Origin: Cafeteria roenbergensis
Lineage: Eukaryota > Sar > Bigyra > Bicosoecida > Cafeteriaceae
NCBI GenBank assembly: GCA_008330645.1
Contig: VLTN01000019.1
Location: forward strand, 62,001 to 126,000
Reading direction: 5' to 3'
Length of the DNA: 64,000 nt
Under the pieces are notes generated by a model. It made no database searches. It saw only the letters and a list, made by a program, of their open reading frames with translations, and was not told the origin of the DNA. Below are positions 3,826 to 9,074 of the stretch, one piece after another. Made by a program: the position numbers and the translations under genes. Position 1 is the stretch's first letter, and every line of letters begins with the position of its first letter.

Positions 3826-3992
3826 TGGCGGCCGAGTCGTGCCGCGCCGCGAGTGGGGCCGCAGCGGGTCGGCGACACTCCCCACTGGCGTTCGAACCGG
3901 CCCAGAGTCGGAGCGCAGAGTCCTCCGCGAGCGCTCTGCTGTAGTTCGCGCAAGGGAGGGCGTCATTGCACCCAACCCGAGCGGGGGGCGCC

Positions 3993-4717
3993 ATGCGGTT
4001 CGGCGGCTTCAGCCTCGAGAGCTTCAAGTTCGGTGTCTACATTGTCGGTGAGCGCGTGCGGGGCGCAGGGCGCTGACAGCTCCTCGCGTGCGTCAGCGGC
4101 AGCGTCAGCCACGGCGGCTTCGACGGACGCAGGGGCTCGACGGCTTGCGCCCTCGCCGGGGGTGCCCGCCACCGCGCCCCCTGTGCCCTCTCTCCCCCGT
4201 GGTGCCAACCTCCTGGCGCAGCGCCTCTTGTGGCGGTGTACGTCTTCAGTGTGCCGGAGGTCTTCACTGGCGTGATCACGAACGTGAGCGCGAAAAATGG
4301 CTGTCAGCTGCAAGTCGTCGCCCGGTGCGCGCGACAGACGCGCCCAAGGTACCGCCGCACGTGTCCTCGGGCGATGAATGCGTGCGCCGGTGAGACGCTG
4401 GGCTGCTGGCACCGTTGGCCTGCTGAGCCGAGGCTCGCTCCGAGTGTGCCCATGCTCCTTCGCAGCGGTCTTACATCACTTACCGCCCGCAAGTCGTCAT
4501 TGACGACGACGACGACGAGGATGAGGACGAGCGCGAGGACGTGGACGCAACCGAGGCCGACCTCGACGAGGCAACTGCGCGGCGCATTGAGGCGTACGTG
4601 CGCGTGGGCCAGGAGGAGCAGCGCGCTCAGCTGCAGGAGATGAAGAAGCGCCTGCAAGCCGACCTGGCGGCCGAGGCAGCCGACCAGGCTGCGGAAGAGG
4701 ACCAAAGCCGCGCGTGA
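3993..4717 (+). CDS. PET100-like mitochondrial cytochrome c oxidase assembly protein
   Basis: Three exons, 3993-4047, 4222-4283 and 4466-4717, give 122 residues with all joins in frame. The start MRFGGFSLESFKFGVYIV runs across intron 1 into APLVAVYVFSVPEVF, a single N-terminal membrane span beginning a few residues after the Met, with a Pro in its middle. After it comes YITYRP, an acidic stretch (DDDDDEDEDERED) and a charged helix, DEATARRIEAYVRVGQEEQR, that runs on to the C-terminus. A short Lx-[LV]E-xF-[RK] start, one span with internal Pro and a basic/acidic helical tail is the layout of PET100, the inner-membrane chaperone for complex IV assembly. Identity is low, so another small mitochondrial membrane protein remains possible. 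The acidic insert is unusual. It is divergent from the poly-Ser gene, 167 bases away. Confidence 0.55.
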
Positions 4718-5183
4718 CGGGACAGCGCCGGGCCGCCGTGCCCAGTCTCGCCGGGGAAAGCGGGGCCAAGGGAGTCGAACGGCGGTGCGTGCGTCCGCCT
4801 CCCCAGCAGGTGTTTTTCTTCTTCCTGCTCGTTTTGCGTGTGCATTGCGCCGGCACAGCGGGGTGCGTGGCTTGAAAGTGGCCAGGGGCGCTTGATGCGG
4901 TGCCATTGGTCCCCGGCTGAGCCGGCGCGCGGCGCCTCAAAGCCGATTTCCTGTTGATTCCATGAGCGCGGCTCGCGAGCGGGGCACCGGCTCCCGCCCC
5001 CATGCGCACACACTCGAAACAGGAACAACACCCGCAGTTGCGCCAGGCAGCCGGGCGGCGGGATTCGCTCCCGGCGGCGGCGTGCCCACGGCCCTCTCGC
5101 TGGTCCGAGGCAGCGGCTGACGCTGCGCTGCGCTGCCCCAGGCCCGGACCGCCCCCAATGCCAGGGCGGCCGCCAGCCGGAGC
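4718..5183. other. intergenic, convergent 3' ends
   Basis: Gap between the PET100-like gene and the RNase H gene. It has a T-rich patch near 4810-4835 but no frame with recognisable protein content and no RNA gene that I can support. The RNase H stop overlaps a GTGAGC donor-like sequence, so a further small exon of that gene could lie here. Confidence 0.5.
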
Positions 5184-6740
5184 TCACGCGCGAGGCAGCC
5201 CCATGCCCGACTCGAACCCCGGGCGGAGCTCGCCGCTCAGGCCCGCGTCGACGCCCGAGGAGGCGAGGCTGTCCGCCTCCGCGTTGCGGCCCCGCAGCAC
5301 GTGCTCCAGCTTCACAGCCACGCCCCTGGCCTCAAGAGCCCGCTTGGCCGCCAGGGCGGCGCCCCGGAGGGCCGCCATCCGCGGGTCGCGCGCCTGCCAC
5401 CGCCCCGCCACCTGGCTCAGCGCCAGCTTGCTGTCGCCCCGCACCAGCAGCCGGCTGCCCCCCACCAGCAGCCGGCCGCTCATCTCCAGGCCCCGGATCA
5501 GGCCCGTGTACTCGGCCTCGTTATTCGTCGCCTCGCCCATGAAACCGTGGCCAGAGAAGCACAGCCGGCCCGATGGGTCGCCCGTGCCCGCCCGCAGGAC
5601 GCTGCCCCACGCGGCAGGCCCGGGGTTGCTCCTCGACGCTCCGTCGAACCACAGCGTGTAGTCCCCGGGGGGCTCCACCTCCTCGCCCTCCGCCCCGCCG
5701 GCTGGGGGTTCAAGCGCATACCCGCCCGGCGCCCCAGCCACGCCGCTGCCGCTGCCGCTGCCGCTGCCGCTGCCACCAGCAGCCGCGCCGTGTACGGGCG
5801 GAGCCACGGACGAGGTCCTGCTGCTGCCGGCAGCGCGCGCGACTGCTGGCGGCGCCCGCCTATCGCCGGCGGCGGCGAGCGAGGCGTGGCCCAGCTCCCG
5901 GCTGCAAGCTCCGGAGGCGCCACCGTGCCCACCGCGCAGCGCTTTCGACGGCAACCTCGCTGCTGCGGCATCCGCCCCTGCAGCCGGCGCTGCTGCCGTC
6001 GAAAGCGCTGCTGCCGCCCCGCTGGCGGCAGCGGCCGTCGCAGGCTCGTCCCAGCACCGGATCAGCTCCGCACCGGCGTCGGTGGGGGAGTCCAGCCCGG
6101 CCAAGACACGAGCCGCGCGCAGCGTCGCCGGCGTCACCAAGCGGCACGGCCCGTCGCTGCCGCTGGAGACCCAGCTCCGTGCCTCCTGCTCTGTGCGCCA
6201 CTTTTTGAACACGGCGGCGCTGTGGCCGCGCACGAACGGCTCCACCTCCGCCCACGCTAGCCCCACGAACACGCCGCGAAACCGGCCTTGGCGCACGCCG
6301 TAGATGTTTGGGCTTGTCTTGGGACCGCGGCCCTTGCTGACGCGCAGCTGGCCCTCGCTTGCGGCCGCGATTCCGGCAAGCTGCCCTGCGTCGGCAAACA
6401 CGAACGTGCTTGCCCAGCCCGTTTCCTGCACGTTGCGAGCATGCTCGCGGAGCGCCGGCGAGCCCGCGGGGATGGCGTCCCCGAGCCCCGCTTCTTCCCA
6501 CTGTTGCACGAAGCCCGGCGACTTGCGAAGCTGCTGCACCGACCGGGCTGCGCTGAGCAGCGCCGCAGCCGGGGCGCCCCTGCCCGAGCCCGACATGCCC
6601 CTCGTGTCCGAGACGCGCCTCACGATTTCCGACGGGCTCAGCCGGCGGAACATGTCGTCCAGGTCGTAAGCTTTCAAAACCGCGTTGGCGTGGCCTGGCA
6701 GCGATGTTTCGGAAACCGGACGCCGCCTACTGCGGGGCAT
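5184..6740 (-). CDS. RNase H1 with viroplasmin-like hybrid-binding domain
   Basis: About 518 residues from the ATG at 6740 (MPRSRRR); the frame is open upstream to an ATG at 7175, which would add a Pro/Ala-rich, possibly targeting, segment, and I cannot decide between them. Middle: a hybrid-binding (viroplasmin-like) domain with NIYGVRQGRFRGVFVGLAWA and AVFKKWRTEQEARSWV. A Gly-Ser linker follows (GSGSGSGSG, near 5755). C-terminal type 1 RNase H fold, with all four metal ligands visible: Asp in LWFDGASRSNPG, Glu in TNNEAEYTGL, Asp in RGDSKLAL, Asp in NAEADSLAS. It should cut RNA in RNA/DNA hybrids in nucleus or organelle. No reverse transcriptase or integrase neighbours it, so it is a host RNase H1. 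The TGA stop is part of GTGAGC, so a spliced C-terminus is possible. Confidence 0.88.
   Translation of the reverse strand: MPRSRRRPVSETSLPGHANAVLKAYDLDDMFRRLSPSEIVRRVSDTRGMSGSGRGAPAAALLSAARSVQQLRKSPGFVQQWEEAGLGDAIPAGSPALREHARNVQETGWASTFVFADAGQLAGIAAASEGQLRVSKGRGPKTSPNIYGVRQGRFRGVFVGLAWAEVEPFVRGHSAAVFKKWRTEQEARSWVSSGSDGPCRLVTPATLRAARVLAGLDSPTDAGAELIRCWDEPATAAAASGAAAALSTAAAPAAGADAAAARLPSKALRGGHGGASGACSRELGHASLAAAGDRRAPPAVARAAGSSRTSSVAPPVHGAAAGGSGSGSGSGSGVAGAPGGYALEPPAGGAEGEEVEPPGDYTLWFDGASRSNPGPAAWGSVLRAGTGDPSGRLCFSGHGFMGEATNNEAEYTGLIRGLEMSGRLLVGGSRLLVRGDSKLALSQVAGRWQARDPRMAALRGAALAAKRALEARGVAVKLEHVLRGRNAEADSLASSGVDAGLSGELRPGFESGMGLPRA
5745..5778. repeat. GCCGCT hexamer run coding a Gly-Ser linker
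   Basis: Repeated CCGCTG/GCCGCT units that read Gly-Ser on the minus strand between the two RNase H1 domains. Confidence 0.8.
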
Positions 6741-7395
6741 AGACACGGGTGGTGCTGCGGCGCTAGCGAAGGCCCGAAATCCGGGCGCGCCACAGTTCCA
6801 AGGCCGCCGAGTGCGCTCGTGGTGGGCCGCGCAGGCGCTGTGTGTCCCGGGGCAGAGCACGACAGGACACACGACATCGGCTTCGGCGAGGCGAGGCAGG
6901 GCAGGCAGCGCGGCGCAAGCACAGGCCAGGAGGGATGCAATCACAAGTGGGGACGGCCGGTGCCTTGTGGGCGGCGGCGGCCGCGGAAGAGCACAGCCGG
7001 GTGCCGTTCCCGCAGCCGCCGCGCACCAGCACCGGCGCTCCCCGGCGCGGCCCGCGGCTGGCCAGACGGTGCCAGGAAAAGCTTCACCAAATCCCACCGT
7101 CTGGCGTTGAGCTGCCGCGGGCCTGCCGAATCCTTGTTGCCTCGGGTCCGGGGGCTCGGCGGGGCGCTCGCGCACCCGCGCCTGTGATGCCCCGCGTCCG
7201 TCACAGGCTGCAATCGACTTCCCGCCTGCGCGCGCGCGCGAGCGGCAGCGGCCCTTTTCCGCGCAAACGCCATCACATCAATCACAAGGCCCGCCCCCGA
7301 AGGGAGGGGAGGGGGGCACGCAAGGGCGGGGCGGTGCAGGCGCGCCAGCAAAAGCACGAGGCTTGCCAGCTCGCAGTGCCAGCGCCAGCGCCAGC
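6741..7395 (-). other. 3' region of selD; expected place of a SECIS element
   Basis: Lies between the selD stop and the preferred RNase H start. A eukaryotic selenoprotein mRNA needs a SECIS in this region. GTGA words occur on the minus strand near 7274-7284, followed by an A-run (GGAAAAGG) at about 7253-7260, the right kind of parts, but I could not fold them into a convincing quartet-plus-helix. Nothing else is seen. If the upstream RNase H start (7175) is used, the two genes nearly abut. Confidence 0.4.
7181..7207 (-). other. perfect 7-bp hairpin in the selD 3' region
   Basis: CCTGTGA at 7181-7187 and TCACAGG at 7201-7207 are exact reverse complements around a 13-base GC-rich loop. It is about 190 bases past the selD stop. 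It lacks the AA loop of a SECIS, so its role is open. Confidence 0.5.
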
Positions 7396-9074
7396 TCACG
7401 AGGGGCGCAGGGGAGGCAGATGCGGCACCTCCACGAAGGCGAAGGAGTCAGAGAACACGACGAGCGGGGTCGCGGCAGGCTCAGCCGCCGCCGTGGTCGC
7501 GGCTCCGCTGGCAGCGGCATCGGCGGCGGCGGCGCAATCGGCGCACCCCGCTGCGACAGAGGCCCCGCCGGCGGCACCCTCGGCCGCGGCCGCGGCGGCG
7601 TCACCGGCGGACCCTGGAAGCGCCTCCGCTCGACCCACCACTGTCACCTCCCACCCCAGCTCGTCCTCGCGCGCCATGGCCGCAACGAATCCTTCCACCC
7701 GCTCTTCCGGCAGAGCCACGAAGAGGCCGCCCGACGTTTCGGCGCTGAGCCCTTCCCGAAGCTTGAACATGCCGCCGACGGCGTCGTCGATCGCGAGCGC
7801 GCCCTCCAGCACGGGCAGGCGGTCCAGCACGATGCGCACCGGCACCCCGCCGTCCGAGGCGGCGGCGTGCTCTGCCAGGTTCGTGAGGTGGCCCACGGGC
7901 CCAAAGCCGGTCACGTCCGTGGCCGCGGTGGCGCCGTGCTCGGCCATGAGGCGAGCCGCGGTGCGGGAGAGGTGTGCCATGGACCGACACGCGGCCCGGT
8001 ACATGCCTGCCACCTGGTCGCGCGAAACCGCCGCCTTGATCTTGGCCCAGTTCTTCTCCTCGCCGAGCCACTGCTGGGCGTTGACCGCCAGCTGGGTGCC
8101 GAGGGGTTTGGTGAGCACGATGACGTGGCCGGGCCTGATGCCGCCGGGTCGCACGAGGGAGGCTTCCTTGACCACGGCGGTGGCCGTGCCGCCGATGATG
8201 GGCCAGGGGTTCTTGACGGTCTGGCCGCCCGTGACGGAGGTGGCGGCCTCCTCGGCGCAGTCGTTGAAGCCTCGCATCATCATGGCAGTGACCACGTCGC
8301 GCTCTGCCGGCTGCATTTGCGTGGACACCGAGAGAAGCATAAGCATGGTGTCGCAGTCGGGCACGCCCATGGCGAAGAGGTCCGAGAGGACGTTGCAGCA
8401 GGCGATGCGGCCCTGCAGGTAGGGGTCCTCGACGAGGGGATAGAAGAAGTCGGTGGTCGACACCAGCATCAGGCCGGCGTGGCCCAGGCGGACCACGGAG
8501 GCGTCCATGCCTGGAGTCTCGTTCGGCCGGGCGGAGGACCCGATGGCCGAGAGGTACGAAAGAAGCTTTTCCTGGGAGACCTTGCAGCCTCAGCCCTTCA
8601 GCTGCGCAGGCAGCGGCGCGGCAGCCACGAGGGGGAAGCGCTGGCGCGAGCGTTGACGAAGCCGCCGGGGCCGCAGCCTGTGGGCGCCACGAGGCAATGC
8701 CAGGCCGGCTGGCATCGCCGCGGGCCGCGCTCGCTGGCGCGCCCGGGCACTCGCATAGCGGGGAGTGCCGCAGCAGAACGCCGCGAGAGGGGGCCGTGGC
8801 AGGCGCCTCACCTTGCTGAAGTCCGTGAGCCTGAAGTTGGCCCTGAGCCCGTGCTCGACGGGGTTGAACACGTGCGCAAGCGCGGCATCCAGTCCCTGCG
8901 GCGCCACGCGGGTTGAGGCAGGGCGCGGCGGGGAGTGGCAGGCTGCCAGGCGCGCAAGGAGAAACGACAGCATTTTGCGCTTCCGGCACTCACCGACGCG
9001 GGGCGAGCGCGCTTGCTCGCTGGGTCGGTGGGACCATCCCCCGCCTCCTCGCGCGGCCTTCTGGCCGCTGCCAT
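7396..9074 (-). CDS. selD: selenophosphate synthetase, selenocysteine-containing
   Basis: Makes selenophosphate from selenide and ATP, the Se donor for selenocysteine. Exons 8994-9074, 8812-8895 and 7396-8601, all phase 0, 456 residues if the TGA at 8590-8592 is read through. Across intron 2 the protein reads FRLTDFSK-LKG-U-GCKVSQEKLL; the TGA falls exactly where other SPS2 proteins have Sec or Cys in the catalytic GUGCK loop. Downstream features match the AIRS fold: STTDFFYPLVEDPYLQGRIA, CNVLSDLFAMGV, TGGQTVKNPWPIIGG, ATDVTGFGPVGHL and LSAETSGGLFVAL. A Cys/Ala-rich insert precedes the last strand (FAFVEVP). If translation began after the TGA (Met at 8508), the catalytic loop would be lost. 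The final stop is part of GTGAGC, so the last few residues could be spliced differently. Confidence 0.93.
8590..8592 (-). other. selD: in-frame TGA read as selenocysteine in selD
   Basis: Residue 59 of the spliced protein, 9 bases into exon 3, in the context Leu-Lys-Gly-TGA-Gly-Cys-Lys-Val. Protein similarity continues in frame on both sides, so this is a recoded codon rather than a stop or a damaged gene. Confidence 0.88.

Follow-up and report, generated by a model that had tools for sequence, protein, structure and literature searches.

Among the described selenophosphate synthetases (SPS), the selenocysteine (Sec) form of eukaryotic SPS2 (SEPHS2) carries its catalytic UGA within KGxGCK, which we take to be the SEPHS2 motif, has AIRS and AIRS_C domains without a fused partner, and is encoded in genomes with other Sec-type genes. 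Bacterial SelD belongs to the same enzyme family and has the same catalytic position. In PMC4561486, SPS2 is treated as a marker of Sec use that is scattered among stramenopiles, and the SPS1-UGA genes of Hymenoptera are described as having a UGA at the homologous position in species that lack most of the Sec machinery, with no SECIS. Our literature search, which covered few subscription papers, found no report of selenoproteins in Cafeteria or other bicosoecids; PMC7539508 deals with algae, and a Cafeteria passage of PMC5917014 concerns the virus. According to PMC6972860, the genome of Cafeteria roenbergensis BVI comprises 170 contigs and 36,327,047 bases with 70.1% GC, and UGA encodes Trp in the mitochondrion.

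Here we describe an SPS gene in a 64,000-nucleotide stretch of contig C19 of this assembly, hereafter the window, with a GC content of about 0.70 (0.63–0.79 in 2-kb steps). The organism is named C. burkhardae in later papers. We consider the gene to encode a eukaryotic-type, Sec-containing SPS2, with a probability of roughly 0.93. It resembles SEPHS2 in all of the features given above and differs in an alanine-rich segment (about 50 residues) close to the C-terminus, in an N-terminal exon that is not fixed, and in a SECIS that is only a candidate.

The gene is encoded on the minus strand, and from its splice signals and reading frame we infer that it is spliced from 8812 to 8601. The 3' part of the upstream exon (8812–8895, minus strand), placed by translation and splice positions, codes for GLDAALAHVFNPVEHGLRANFRLTDFSK. 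Its upstream boundary and the start are not fixed, with the frame open upstream of 8895 as far as 9666, and the later part of the exon corresponds, in the alignment, to the N-termini of the solved SPS chains 3fd5 and 5l16. A 210-nucleotide GT-AG intron in phase 0 follows (8602–8811, minus strand), bounded by the donor AAG/GTGAGG (first intron base 8811) and the acceptor GCAG/CTG (last intron base 8602). This intron is open in frame by chance, and its retention would add 70 residues within the conserved FRLTxFxxLKGxGCK block. The main exon (7396–8601, minus strand) runs from LKG-TGA-GCKV to the terminal TGA at 7398–7396 and is defined by its frame together with family and domain matches above cut-off. 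Joining 8812–8895 to 8601–7396 gives a product that reads ...FRLTDFSK-LKG-TGA-GCKVSQEK..., which is the phase-0 splice that the first-pass annotation had proposed and which the GT-AG signals and the long frame bear out.

The in-frame TGA, proposed here as the Sec codon at the catalytic residue, occupies window positions 8590–8592 (the plus strand reads TCA there, the minus strand TGA), as placed by the sequence, the spliced frame and the alignment. From GLDAALAH (8895) to the terminal TGA there are 430 codons including the terminator, and the only stops among them are two TGA, the terminator and codon 32, with neither TAA nor TAG. Approximately 0.007 TGA per codon are expected at the base composition of the second exon, so one TGA among 430 codons is not rare by chance. 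What chance would not account for is the position of the sole internal stop, which coincides with the family's catalytic codon and is flanked on both sides by strong family similarity. The codons directly after it are GGC TGC, then AAG. At the UGA itself the predicted RNA structure was nothing unusual (z 0.71), and no readthrough stem was found.

Family membership was examined with profile models and with solved structures. The unspliced frame, with Cys in place of the TGA, matched the selD model TIGR00476 with 220.3 bits against a cut-off of 125, and PF00586 and PF02769 (AIRS and AIRS_C) with 52.3 and 46.5 bits against cut-offs of 24 and 23.1; two other selD models stayed under their own cut-offs (198.6/291 and 128.4/299 bits). 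Pfam detected no fused domain in the scanned frame. In a phmmer search with the spliced protein and X at the TGA, the six sequences matched included 5l16 (2.8e-95), 3fd5 (4.9e-94) and 3u0o (2.1e-25), which we take to be the Leishmania enzyme, human SEPHS1 and the Escherichia coli enzyme, respectively. The X was aligned to C in 5l16, T in 3fd5 and C in 3u0o, and the alignment is strong on both sides of it, in agreement with the earlier claims that the TGA sits at the catalytic Sec position and is flanked by family similarity. The LKG-x-GCK block has equal spacing in 3fd5 and takes the form LKGxxCK in 5l16. The lysine of GCK follows the Cys/Sec position as in the family; both this lysine and the residue at the TGA are presumably catalytic. 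These similarities mark the protein as eukaryotic in type. Similarity to bacterial SelD is far lower (2.1e-25 for 3u0o versus about 1e-94 for the eukaryotic chains), which argues against a bacterial-like transferred SPS.

Only one SPS match was present in the whole assembly as searched (36,303,456 bases in 167 contigs), and this gene is therefore the expected source of selenophosphate. A search for relatives in viral contigs gave five pattern matches, none of which was confirmed, with a single-protein query that detects close relatives only.

We then consider the Sec machinery, which the first-pass annotation had expected in full. A tRNA-Sec with anticodon TCA scored 71.3 bits against a cut-off of 47; in the control for this search, all 14 control genomes gave matches and 5 of them rose above the cut-off. 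A second match of 35.8 bits, under the cut-off, was rejected as a mitochondrial tRNA-Ser. Domain IV of eEFSec reached 59.8 bits (cut-off 27; 0/14 control genomes), and the protein matched two eEFSec chains in the PDB at 6.8e-112 and 1e-111, ahead of SelB (7e-46) and EF-Tu (from 2.6e-26). SecS was identified by TIGR03531 with 513.7 bits over two pieces (cut-off 224.85; 1/14 control genomes). The joint absence of tRNA-Sec and eEFSec, which had been named as an argument against recoding, is thus not what the assembly shows, since both are in it.

The expectation of a full set held for these three components, and thus only in part, with PSTK uncertain. No SBP2 was recognized by eye among the six loci with an L7Ae domain, which appear to be Snu13, eL8, eS12 (twice), NHP2 and eL30, and an intron-split or divergent SBP2 could escape such a search. 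A search of the assembly with TIGR03575, the eukaryotic PSTK model, returned nothing. A PSTK candidate (C4:323157-323627, repeated at C157:9581-10051) scored 23.8 bits with PF08433 and looks somewhat PSTK-like by eye. Its best NCBIfam match, TIGR03574, was only 6.1e-6 and 25.9 bits against a cut-off of 290.5, and in the PDB it matched VCP-like ATPases at 0.005–0.01 and PSTK chains only at an E-value of 0.04. The best PF08433 locus (126.3 bits), on contig C27, looks Kti12-like by eye and is favored over the candidate by TIGR03574 as well (7.3e-11). The two copies of the candidate have equal score and frame length and are perhaps an unmerged second haplotype. This uncertainty leaves the odds of the Sec reading unaffected, since PSTK is not among its supports.

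Other genes in the assembly also have TGA at Sec positions. A thioredoxin-reductase-like gene (TrxR1; C67:56274-57806, minus strand) matched TIGR01438 with 560.2 bits (cut-off 475.85) and contains one TGA. A second such gene on contig C27 (TrxR2) was recovered in three pieces of 313, 80.7 and 42.4 bits, each under the cut-off and together covering most of TIGR01438, and its last part (C27:176327-176575, plus strand) also has one TGA. Both end in the C-terminal sequence SC-TGA-G-TAG. A GPx gene on contig C52 scored 44.7 bits against a cut-off of 27 in a match that spans two TGA codons. The first lies at the active site (NTATY-TGA-GLTVSNYEGL), and the second, at CCAGTGAGCC, is read from the sequence context as part of a splice donor. 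This gene stands head to tail with a Cys GPx (NTASKCGF) at approximately 3900–7290 of the C52 locus piece. Of the loci matching the Rdx family (PF10262), one has the Cys form CSSC, and the other exon (C41:49911-50108, minus strand) is without the N-terminal part where CxxC or CxxU would fall. The single PF13911 locus has no in-frame stop.

A SECIS element was sought downstream of these genes. For SPS the candidate lies at 7209–7286 on the minus strand, starting about 110 nucleotides past the stop, and combines a 10-bp helix I, the quartet TGAT/GGAA with a two-base offset, a 10-bp helix II and an AAAA apex. Its pattern score of 36.5 was reached by 2 of 400 control chunks of 900 nucleotides, by 2 of 1270 of 300 nucleotides and by 1 of 263 in an earlier control set, counts that give no unbiased p-value because the scoring was widened, with helix I added and the two-base offset allowed, after the candidate had been seen. 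With the narrower earlier scheme its score of 18.0 was reached by 5% of 120 chunks. The controls were genomic chunks from 27 sources, both strands and a few overlapping, rather than known 3' UTRs. From these, the listed duplicates were removed, together with mitochondrial pieces and any chunk that contained one of the three elements. In folding calculations helix II had a probability of 0.16 in contexts of 81 and 97 nucleotides and 0.00–0.02 in contexts of 117–297 nucleotides, and helix I fell from 0.97–0.95 to 0.00–0.12 in the longer contexts. The enforced fold lay 0.3 to 5.4 kcal/mol above the minimum, under an energy model that credits nothing to the non-standard SECIS quartet. As a separate 97-nucleotide stretch, the candidate was absent from the minimum-energy fold, with a z-score of +1.47, and 187 of 200 shuffles folded at least as well. 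Rfam gave no SECIS near SPS at gathering level, and up to an E-value of 10 only microRNA and other unrelated matches. Given this weak fold and the scheme adapted post hoc, we call the predicted SPS SECIS at 7286–7209 tentative.

The elements of the thioredoxin-reductase-like genes fold better. A SECIS-like hairpin lies 683 nucleotides past the TrxR1 stop, with the quartet TGAC/TGAG, 11 base pairs and a GAAA apex. Over five contexts, helix II had a probability of 0.99–1.00 in TrxR1 and 0.91–0.92 in TrxR2; the TrxR1 score, where the fold is robust, was reached by 9 of 400 control chunks and that of TrxR2 by 2 of 400. Scanned directly with Rfam SECIS_1, the TrxR1 locus gave 26.9 bits (E 0.14), under the cut-off of 35, whereas the same model run on the entire assembly returned nothing up to an E-value of 10 (121 candidates scored); the whole-assembly search was thus insensitive, since the direct scan did find the TrxR1 element. 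A first constraint-fold scan was over-strict, missing the good TrxR1 element and giving one poor TrxR2 candidate. For GPx, no SECIS was found in the 900 nucleotides after the TGA-containing gene, and the widened scheme gave no candidate. Scans for a CC apex in the SPS and GPx 3' UTRs and for a GGA quartet in GPx found nothing. Two hairpins from a scan for GGA/AGA quartets were rejected: GGAT/GGAG in SPS, with a helix probability of 0.62, above that of the main candidate, for its loop of about 60 nucleotides with no initial A, and GGAG/CGAC in GPx (helix probability 0.59) for having no A-rich apex.

Three other explanations of the SPS TGA were weighed. The best of them, which we nevertheless consider improbable, is that an ordinary tRNA reads the UGA, as proposed for insect SPS1-UGA, so that the residue is not Sec. 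This would agree with the failure to find a firm SECIS in the SPS 3' UTR, and the insect genes set a precedent, described in PMC4561486. The same paper, however, reports hymenopteran species without most of the Sec machinery, an absence not seen in this assembly with its tRNA-Sec, eEFSec, SecS and other TGA/Sec genes, and a readthrough hexamer GGG-TG[C/T] that is missing here, where GGC TGC follows the TGA. Moreover, the sole SPS match of the genome should supply selenophosphate. A still smaller chance is given to a main mRNA that uses an acceptor further downstream, for example, the CAAG before GTC TCC (exon from 8580, phase 0), and so removes the TGA. An AG does stand at a possible acceptor place just past GCK. 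Such an mRNA would lose the LKG-x-GCK block, including the conserved lysine, that 3fd5 and 5l16 possess, so that the enzyme could hardly work, with no second SPS found in the assembly to replace it. A sequencing error (true codon TGC or TGT) or a dead gene is comparably remote: the TGA is one base from the Cys codons, but no other internal stop interrupts the 430 codons, the family motifs are kept along the alignment, the genome, which has other TGA/Sec genes, yielded no second SPS match, and PMC6972860 states that both PacBio and Illumina reads were used to polish the assembly.

The SPS TGA is therefore very probably read as selenocysteine, as the first-pass annotation had suggested, a reading now backed by tRNA-Sec, eEFSec, SecS and the sister TGA genes. 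Translation of UGA as Sec in the cell, and the identity of the RNA element that would direct it, we infer from the genome. In such a system, the selenol at the SPS2 catalytic site would take part in selenophosphate formation, and SecS would use that selenophosphate to make further Sec-tRNA.

Nuclear TGA is not generally reassigned: it terminates the frames for SPS, GPx and eEFSec, and SPS uses TGG for each of its four Trp residues. Contig C167 (43,160 bases; 24–29% GC in five pieces) is a mitochondrial genome, and its frames of at least 80 codons increase from a total of 8,822 to 18,996 codons once TGA is taken as sense. It also contains a 73-nucleotide tRNA with anticodon TCA that ARAGORN labelled SeC. 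UGA would accordingly have three meanings in the cell: Trp in the mitochondrion, and Sec and stop in the cytosol.

In the neighborhood of the gene, a long frame lies just downstream of SPS (5184–7277, minus strand) with a stretch that looks RNase H-like by eye (DYTLWFDGASRSNPGPAAWG). A start of this frame at the ATG at 6740 would limit the SPS 3' UTR to about 650 nucleotides at most. Inside the span of this frame is an inverted repeat (5936–6011) with perfect outer arms of 18 bp (GCAGCGCTTTCGACGGCA...TGCCGTCGAAAGCGCTGC).

The SPS finding itself is right but ordinary, as Sec is what this enzyme normally has at its catalytic site. A wider proposal, which we hold to be possible but rather unlikely, is that bicosoecids gain here, in Cafeteria, their first described selenoprotein system, with strongly GC-rich SECIS elements missed by standard models, an SBP2 too divergent for recognition and a UGA with three meanings. 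Ordinary gene callers take TGA as a stop and are expected to truncate SPS and both thioredoxin-reductase-like genes; therefore, the annotation needs checking. The combination of a weak SECIS and an unrecognized SBP2 offers a concrete test of how far SECIS recognition can drift in eukaryotes. At the level of the genome, the analysis provides evidence for selenoprotein production in this protist.
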